A stretch of 64,000 bases of DNA. Source: Prochlorococcus sp. MIT 0603 (GTDB lineage: Bacteria; Cyanobacteriota; Cyanobacteriia; PCC-6307; Cyanobiaceae). Position 1 is the stretch's first letter; each line of letters opens with the position of its first letter. Shown piece after piece: positions 25,867 through 27,445 of the stretch. The position numbers were made by a program, and so were the translations under genes. The notes under the pieces are model-generated. The model was not told the origin of the DNA and ran no database searches. It was given only the letters and a program-made list of their open reading frames with translations. The stretch is taken from NCBI RefSeq assembly GCF_000760215.1, contig NZ_JNAW01000002.1, positions 528,300 to 592,299 on the forward strand, given 5' to 3'.

Positions 25867-25898
25867 AAAAAAAAAGACTCTGCGATTAACGCTGAGCC
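25867..25898 (-). terminator. Rho-independent-type terminator for minus-strand transcript
   Basis: Read on the minus strand: CTCAGCG (25890-25896), 5-base loop, CGCAGAG (25878-25884) with one mismatch, then TC and nine T (25867-25875). It would end either the purK transcript or the RNA locus. Confidence 0.65.
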
Positions 25899-26230
25899 TG
25901 GGTGATGGGGAACCCCCTTTCTAGGTCATATTTGATATTAAATCAAGTCCCATGGATGGTGATTACTATAAGCATGAGGACACTATCAGTGGTGCCATGC
26001 TCAATATATTGCTCTGGCTCTGGTTTTCATCATCAAATTAATCAAGAAAATAAAAGACGAATGATCTGATATCAATAGTATTGAACCATCTTGCCGTGTG
26101 ACCTTAGCGTTCGACCTGGATAAGCCAGAAAAGGAGTCAAAGCAAGGTTCCATTTCCAGTTCAAGACTGGTTTACTTCCCCTATACGACAGTCTCCTTAA
26201 GTCGAAAAAGAGTCAGATCAGAGCACTAGA
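25867..26230 (-). ncRNA. Structured non-coding RNA locus next to purK (identity unknown; 6S RNA a candidate)
   Basis: No frame fits this segment, yet it is rich in nested complementarity and has normal GC in an AT-rich spacer. Between 26063 and 26219 the ends pair (GATCTGA with TCAGATC). Inside lies a rod: 26083-26086 with 26147-26150, 26090-26094 with 26142-26146, 26099-26105 with 26131-26139, capped by CTGG/CCAG around 26116-26128. On the minus strand further hairpins occur at about 25963-25997 and 25905-25915, ending in a terminator. In some cyanobacteria 6S RNA is reported beside purK, which is why I name it. The minus strand is preferred because of the terminator and a TATATT near 26256-26261. 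Confidence 0.5.
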
Positions 26231-26278
26231 AGATCTTCACCAACAAAATAGTTCAATAATATATTTTAAACATAAAAG

Positions 26279-27445
26279 TTACGTAATTGGCCATATCGTC
26301 CGAATCTGATTGTGTATTTCTCCTGCCTCAATTCTTAGTTGATCCTTATTTGTAGCAGTGAGGAGTTTTGTAACATGGCCAAGTTTGCGTCCGGGATGAT
26401 TTTTAGTTTTGTTATACCAATGAACACTTAAACCAGGGATATCCTTCAATAATGAAAGCCTTTCAGATAATGATCCGTCATCTTCAAATCCCAATAGATT
26501 AACCATGATTGCGCCAGGAGATATTAGTTCTGGTTGTGGCATAGAAATTCCAGAAGCGATTGCAATCTGATGTTGAAACTGATTGCTCTTGCATGCCTCA
26601 ATTGTAAAATGAGCTGAATTATGAGTTCTCGGAGCAATTTCATTAACAAGTAAGCCTTCATCTCCATAGAAAAATTCTATGGCTAATACGCCATAATAAT
26701 TGAGTTCTCTAACTAGAGATATAGCTATATTCTTCGCAAAAGAACTTACTTGATGGGCTACATTTGCTGGTGCCATAACCCAATCACATATTTGATTACA
26801 TTGAAATGTTTCTGTCAATGGAAAAATTTTGACATTTCCCTGTAAATCTCTTGAAATTACCAAGGATAATTCCTTTTCATAATTCACCCATTTCTCTAGA
26901 AACCAATCATTAGGATGAACTGATTTTAAAAGCTGCTTTAAATCTGATTCGTTCCTTAGGACTCTTGTACCTTTACCGTCATACCCACCAATGGATGACT
27001 TTGCCATGAGTGGGAATGGCCAAAGATTATTATCAATTGATACACTGCCTTCATAAGAAGATAACGGTATCCAATCTGGTCCAGGAATATTTAGTCTGTT
27101 AAGAAGCTTGCGTTGGGAAAGTTTGTTTACTAGTGGTTTCATTGAGGACAAATTAGGAATAAATTTGACTCCAACATCCTCAAGGGAAGATAAAGTATCG
27201 GTATCTATCCATTCATTCTCAAAAGTTACGCATTTTGTTAACTGAGATAGTTTTCTGGTTCCATTAATATCATTAGTATCTGCAAGTATAAATCCATCAG
27301 CATTAGCAACTGCGGGATCTTGCTCAGAACCAGTTTGTACAAGCACTTCAACTGACATTCCCCTCGCTGCTATAGCTAGCATTTGTGCAAGCTGGCCTCC
27401 TCCAACCACACCAATACAATGATTCAGCTGATCTTCGTTTTTCAA
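26279..27445 (-). CDS. purK: 5-(carboxyamino)imidazole ribonucleotide synthase
   Basis: 388 aa ATP-grasp enzyme that carboxylates AIR with bicarbonate and ATP in purine synthesis. Seen: N-terminal GVVGGGQLAQMLAIAARGMS, the ATP-grasp block PLMAKSSIGGYDGKGTRVL, and NEIAPRTHNSAHFTIEAC, all diagnostic of PurK. It is transcribed divergently from aroB with an 80-base gap, and is followed by the structured RNA locus. Confidence 0.96.
   Translation of the reverse strand: MKNEDQLNHCIGVVGGGQLAQMLAIAARGMSVEVLVQTGSEQDPAVANADGFILADTNDINGTRKLSQLTKCVTFENEWIDTDTLSSLEDVGVKFIPNLSSMKPLVNKLSQRKLLNRLNIPGPDWIPLSSYEGSVSIDNNLWPFPLMAKSSIGGYDGKGTRVLRNESDLKQLLKSVHPNDWFLEKWVNYEKELSLVISRDLQGNVKIFPLTETFQCNQICDWVMAPANVAHQVSSFAKNIAISLVRELNYYGVLAIEFFYGDEGLLVNEIAPRTHNSAHFTIEACKSNQFQHQIAIASGISMPQPELISPGAIMVNLLGFEDDGSLSERLSLLKDIPGLSVHWYNKTKNHPGRKLGHVTKLLTATNKDQLRIEAGEIHNQIRTIWPIT

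Follow-up and report, generated by a model that had tools for sequence, protein, structure and literature searches.

A 6S RNA gene and an adjacent small RNA gene with a predicted sigma-factor target and decoy RNA in Prochlorococcus

Prochlorococcus has very few regulatory proteins. The described RNA pair closest to the one analysed here is formed by Yfr1 and Yfr2, two small RNAs with complementary conserved motifs (ACUCCUCACAC and GGAAACA), one of which counteracts the other on mRNA targets (PMC6778093). Sponges of base-pairing sRNAs are a second point of comparison, as they present a target-like site. Yfr103 and the Cyano-2 RNA (RF01702) are multi-copy in marine picocyanobacteria; Yfr103 is 290-328 nt long, with seven paralogues in CC9605, and may be the RNA described by the Cyano-2 model of 204 positions. 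Homologues of Yfr103 are reported in SS120, NATL2A, MIT9313 and Synechococcus, with an imperfect upstream palindrome at -29 to -58 (PMC5069720). A location of 6S RNA (Yfr7 / SsaA) downstream of purK is known for cyanobacteria, and in SS120 yfr7 was published at complement(924466..924640) and Yfr6 at complement 923780..924018 (PMC1242208).

The window is the whole stretch of DNA analysed, 64,000 nucleotides from a Prochlorococcus genome of 1,752,482 bases in 7 contigs. A sequence-only reading had placed a structured, non-coding RNA of about 350 bases beside purK at 25867-26230. The analysis upheld a structured, non-coding stretch with hairpins, directly downstream of purK (26279-27445), but the segment is best explained by a pair of neighbouring RNA genes on the minus strand, each independent of the other, and not by one RNA. 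The same reading had allowed for a less known RNA or two RNAs, which was right as well: there are two, and the second belongs to an unregistered sRNA family. A single 350-base RNA on the plus strand was rejected, because 25867-26230 in that orientation folds no better than shuffles (z -0.92). The features of the locus are as follows.

26279..27445, minus strand: purK (PF02222 ATP-grasp, 2.7e-49; PF17769 PurK_C, 5.5e-15)
26079..26257, minus strand: 6S RNA (Yfr7 / SsaA), Rfam RF00013
25981..25994, minus strand: distal imperfect palindrome CACCACTGATAGTG, an operator-like sequence lying about 37 bp before the sRNA
25948..25961, minus strand: proximal box CACCATCCATGGGA, bordering on the predicted start of the RNA (alignments); probable -10 region
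25951-25867, minus strand: sRNA of about 85 nt, from 5' GGGACUUG... to the U-run, ends predicted (conservation and model R1)
25900..25912, minus strand: invariant core UUCCCCAUCACCC (alignments A1 and A3; genome-wide matches)
25867..25898, minus strand: intrinsic terminator, stem 25876-25884 / 25890-25898, then U-run 25867-25875 (sequence; covariation)

The covariance-model search that the sequence-only reading had proposed matched the 6S model RF00013 on the minus strand at 26079-26257, over model positions 1-187 of 187, with 90 bits (gathering score 46.4) and an E-value of 1.6e-16. This was the sole Rfam family across the whole 64 kb window; tmRNA, RNase P and SRP RNA, also considered earlier, were excluded at Rfam thresholds, tmRNA giving only a chance 15-base match of 7.5 bits. 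The hint that 6S RNA lies next to purK was thus right for 26079-26257, even though no match had been recognized at the time. purK adjoins the 6S RNA upstream on the same strand, with 21 bases between them. 6S RNA was detected in 10 of 14 genomes of the genus, and the SS120 match at 924462-924642 agrees with the published yfr7. With the same full-length model match, purK upstream, the strand order of SS120 and no notable difference from the Prochlorococcus 6S RNA, 26079-26257 is by its model match an ordinary, already known 6S RNA.

Folding of the 6S part on the minus strand beats shuffles (z -3.23). Given this fold and the minus-strand 6S match, and a plus strand no better than shuffles, the rod described at 26083-26150 is therefore part of 6S RNA, read on the opposite strand. 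The closing stem of the 6S alignment pairs the two RNA ends, about 26256 with about 26081, and the earlier end pairing of 26063-26069 with 26213-26219 is absent from this structure. Ending the segment at 26230 likewise truncates the 6S RNA, which runs to 26257.

The second gene, at 25867-25951, ends in a terminator-like hairpin on the minus strand, and the nine T of the earlier description are its run, an A-run at 25867-25875 on the plus strand. Pairing in the terminator stem is kept through base changes, with 93.3% of cells paired in the alignment and 1 of 500 shuffles as high. The hairpin described at 25963-25997 coincides with a conserved box upstream of the RNA, the palindrome at 25981-25994. 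A DNA search found the region 25867-25963 conserved in 8 of 13 congeners, but its spacing from 6S differs widely among them (~0.2 kb in SS120; 6-8 kb in G005, G008 and G010; ~187 kb in G002); thus, 25867-25951 is an independent RNA gene. A stand-alone gene with its own terminator is what is expected of a trans-encoded antisense sRNA. These distances also bear on whether the 3' part might instead be the trailer and terminator of the 6S transcript, in one RNA of ~390 nt. The two share a strand, only ~130 bp separate the 6S end from the predicted sRNA start, and no terminator was found between them; however, other congeners carry the element several kilobases or more away from 6S, elsewhere it is often multi-copy, and it has upstream boxes of its own, which makes a trailer very improbable.

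A search of genome contigs with a gapped pattern on the sRNA core gave more than 100 loci, almost all of them from Prochlorococcus of high- and low-light clades; three pattern matches (L040, L045 and L096) were set aside on inspection as unrelated chance matches. Model R1 is tuned to the clade of the window, and divergent copies escape it; it detected the sRNA in 180 of the 400 Cyanobiaceae genomes searched, the largest number in one genome being ten, and most copies lie away from 6S. Aligned members share a 5' G-tract, which reads GGGACUUG in the window, followed by CYUAGAAA and by the core UUCCCCAUCACCC, which is invariant but for a few members; the terminator that ends them varies. RNAalifold gave no consensus pairs for the broad alignment A3, probably because the terminator loops vary in length. 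Upstream, the box CRCTANNNNTAGYG, an imperfect palindrome centred ~38 bp before the G-tract, is present in 88% of 125 distinct members (one position free) compared to 3% of shuffles. Genome-wide in the window's genome this box is not enriched, with five sites versus eight for the reversed pattern, and it was rejected as a marker of a genome-wide regulon. No phage-borne sRNA copies were found in viral contigs by the pattern or in phage records by blastn.

For comparison with published RNAs we took G001 to be SS120, G159 MED4, G126 MIT9312, G120 NATL2A, G089 MIT9211, G269 MIT9515, G245 WH7803 and G180 WH8109. The sRNA has no Rfam match, and under these inferred strain assignments it coincides with no coordinates published for Yfr1-Yfr21 in MED4 or SS120; by these coordinates, it is an unregistered family set apart from Yfr1-Yfr21. 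Yfr19 of MED4 (82 nt) is of similar length, but no MED4 copy was found at 1086081-1086162. Yfr6 of SS120 is also near the purK / 6S locus; it differs in position (923780-924018, versus 924133-924232 for the sRNA) and in carrying a glutamine-II riboswitch match at its start. The motif ACUCCUCACAC of Yfr1 / Yfr10 is absent from 25867-25951 on the minus strand.

That the sRNA is nevertheless a known RNA, such as Yfr103 or one of Yfr22-29 / Yfr101-108, is possible but doubtful. In favour of Yfr103 are its reported homologues and palindrome, which recall the boxes ~38 bp upstream of the G-tract in the sRNA family and its many copies in some genomes. The lengths disagree, however: the sRNA is predicted at ~85 nt from box to terminator, far from the 290-328 nt of Yfr103. 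Cyano-2, with seven matches in WH8109 (G180) and three in G122, also suits the Yfr103 description better in Synechococcus, and it has no match in the window, the window's genome, SS120, NATL2A or MED4. Among the earlier Yfr RNAs, the MED4 copies at 936740+, 772355- and 348880+ match no Yfr1-Yfr21 coordinate. If the coordinates coincide with those of a later Yfr, the RNA has already been named, and the target and decoy reading given below would stand.

The invariant core UUCCCCAUCACCC of the sRNA is complementary to the start site of a sigma-factor gene and to the loop of a second small RNA, which we call the decoy. We searched the core complement GGGTGATGGGGA in six genomes, allowing up to one mismatch. 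Exact matches in the window's genome occur at two sites only, the sRNA gene and the sigma start (G000:C4:389178), and the sigma start matches exactly in all six genomes. We estimate the chance of one exact match of a GC-rich 12-mer at 0.05 to 0.2 per genome, and at far less for a match at a start codon. The target gene, downstream of ppk (polyphosphate kinase), encodes a group-2 sigma-70 factor of the cyanobacterial RpoD-like subfamily (TIGR02997) and begins AGGAGGCCAGGGTG-ATG-GGG-ATC-CCT-CTG-GAA, with the start signal GGCCaGGGTG-ATG-GGG-ATC. Five sigma factors are reported in MED4, all cycling over the day, including the group II factor PMM1697 (PMC2663038); the target gene in MED4 is probably PMM1697, a name that we infer from gene order.

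All sigma genes examined from the sRNA clade, 23 of which were aligned, have the start context (GGCC or GACC)-AGGGTGATGGGGATCC. Across these 23 genomes, conservation was 0.50 at -60..-20, 0.92 at -16..-1, 0.95 in codons 1-7 and 0.54 in later positions. Third positions of codons 2-5 scored 1.0, 1.0, 0.96 and 1.0, respectively, compared to a mean of 0.47 for codons 8-33. Near-invariance of the third positions and of the start region shows that the constraint is on the RNA and not on the protein. The start of a paralogous sigma gene is without the site, as is the sigma start of G022, a genome in which neither sRNA nor decoy was found. G018 has a near version of the start-site motif, GGGGTGATGGGGAC, and neither RNA was found there; thus, the motif may be older than the sRNA or be due to something else. 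In the sRNA clade, a conserved sRNA core is complementary to a conserved mRNA site. In seven genomes the duplexes between each genome's own sRNA and sigma start were computed at -37 to -45 kcal/mol, with 0 of 500 shuffles per pair as low. In a looser comparison the sigma start reached -48.9, whereas 57 start regions within the window averaged -20.5 (sd 5.2); duplex energies ignore accessibility, and the sigma start is itself predicted to form a hairpin. As the core holds CCCC, it could also act as a general anti-Shine-Dalgarno element.

Other matches to the core complement lie neither in sRNA genes nor at the sigma start, but in short hairpins that carry GGGUGAUGGGGAUC as their loop and have a terminator close behind. 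The decoy alignment A4 (23 sequences) has an invariant GGGTGATGGG and 86% of stem cells paired, with C-G/U-A exchange, and the strand is fixed, since the G-U pairs in the stem are possible only on one strand. Covariation controls were moderate, as 7 of 500 shuffles reached the observed score, so strand and terminators weigh as much as the stem. Model R2, built from motif-found sequences, detected the decoy in 219 of 400 genomes; its loop identity is thus partly by construction, whereas stem, terminator and spacing are not. Both RNAs were detected in 169 genomes, the sRNA only in 11, the decoy only in 50 and neither in 170 (n = 400), for a Fisher value of 7.6e-52 that counts genomes without correction for phylogeny. 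The two genes are often head to head, with a gap of ~84 bp that holds operator-like palindromes: among 18 such pairs from Prochlorococcus to Synechococcus clades, which were picked from listed coordinates and not at random, 16 had 76-95 bp between model matches. SS120 has one head-to-head pair and a solitary sRNA beside 6S. In predicted fold the sigma start and the decoys are alike, with an outer stem and an inner GAU/AUC stem closed by GGGG.

The decoy is a candidate RNA sponge: it has a target-like site, a hairpin, a terminator and a locus of its own, and as a putative separate transcript it would titrate the sRNA. From sponges as generally described it would differ in having a hairpin gene dedicated to this role, in many cases head to head with the sRNA gene and kept across the family. 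The pair of RNAs resembles Yfr1 and Yfr2 in having complementary conserved motifs, here CCCCAUCACCC and GGGUGAUGGGGAU; unlike Yfr1 and Yfr2, it has one dominant start-codon target, and the decoy, often divergently paired, copies both the sequence and the fold of that target.

We consider it fairly likely that the best explanation of the locus is a 6S RNA beside a trans-acting sRNA that blocks the sigma start, with a decoy that sponges the sRNA. The sRNA would act as a trans-acting antisense RNA, in which CCCCAUCACCC together with GGC(C) of the terminator arm would pair with the ribosome-binding region and start codon of the sigma mRNA, AGGAGGCCAGGGUG-AUG-GGG-AUCC. The CCCC of the sRNA may nucleate on the GGGG loop, and pairing over the start codon should block translation of the sigma factor. 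The decoy repeats GGGUGAUGGGGAUC in the fold of the mRNA start and should titrate the sRNA, relieving the block, and the shared palindromes would set the balance between sRNA and decoy. The sRNA gene and its conservation, the complementarity, the constraint on the target RNA and the decoy with its spacing are computed results; the reading further presumes that both RNAs are transcribed with roughly the predicted ends, that repression and titration take place, and that there is an input signal. If true, it would describe a concrete post-transcriptional switch of global expression in highly abundant phototrophs and assign functions to two RNA families that Rfam lacks. We give about an even chance to a broader version, in which a family-wide head-to-head sRNA/decoy module in Prochlorococcus and marine Synechococcus controls the translation of one group-2 sigma factor, possibly with feedback, should the promoters with the palindromes respond to the same sigma factor. 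Against such a module in the window's genome, the sRNA and decoy are not head to head there: the sRNA is solitary beside 6S and the decoy, with one mismatch in the core, is separate, at G000:C2:258079-258143.

The likeness of sigma start and decoys in fold as well as in sequence, and the location of GGGG in the loop, would also suit a CsrA-like protein that binds GGA loops. The GGGUGAUGGGGAUC hairpin of the sigma mRNA and decoy would then be the protein site, with the decoy titrating the protein in the manner of CsrB and the C-rich sRNA acting mainly on the decoy; the 50 genomes with decoy model matches and without an R1 sRNA point the same way. However, complementarity spans the full 12-base motif and GGC(C), beyond what a GGA site needs, and the R2-only genomes, mostly larger and Synechococcus-like, may hide sRNA copies because R1 is tuned to the window's clade; the pattern finds cores in genomes of this kind. 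We judge this protein-based explanation unlikely. The hairpin predicted over the sigma start codon raises the alternative that the sRNA activates, by opening this hairpin or by shielding the mRNA from RNases, but the start codon itself lies within the predicted duplex, which extends to the Shine-Dalgarno region, an arrangement that normally blocks initiation, and activation seems quite unlikely.

Several further loci were observed near or among these RNAs. In SS120, positions 923944-924002 on the minus strand (L145 1312-1370) match the glutamine-II riboswitch aptamer (RF01704) with 74.6 bits; with the aptamer at its 5' end, Yfr6 looks like the riboswitch-led mRNA of its 33-aa frame and not a plain ncRNA. 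Solitary decoys of MIT9211 and SS120 (L219 and L232), with no adjacent sRNA match, are upstream of the same small gene (MNLGLLFL...), so their location is conserved. At L170, Cyano-2 adjoins an sRNA/decoy pair. The pattern search also found the core in Synechococcus, in some cases with quite different 5' parts; at L178, L180, L183, L189, L190 and other marine Synechococcus loci, CCCCAUCACCYGGCC and a terminator are the only part common with the sRNA, as if this 3' module were reused among RNAs with different 5' parts. In G064, seven sRNA matches lie within 51 kb (C1:89617-140429), at least three of them head to head with a decoy, which suggests local duplication.
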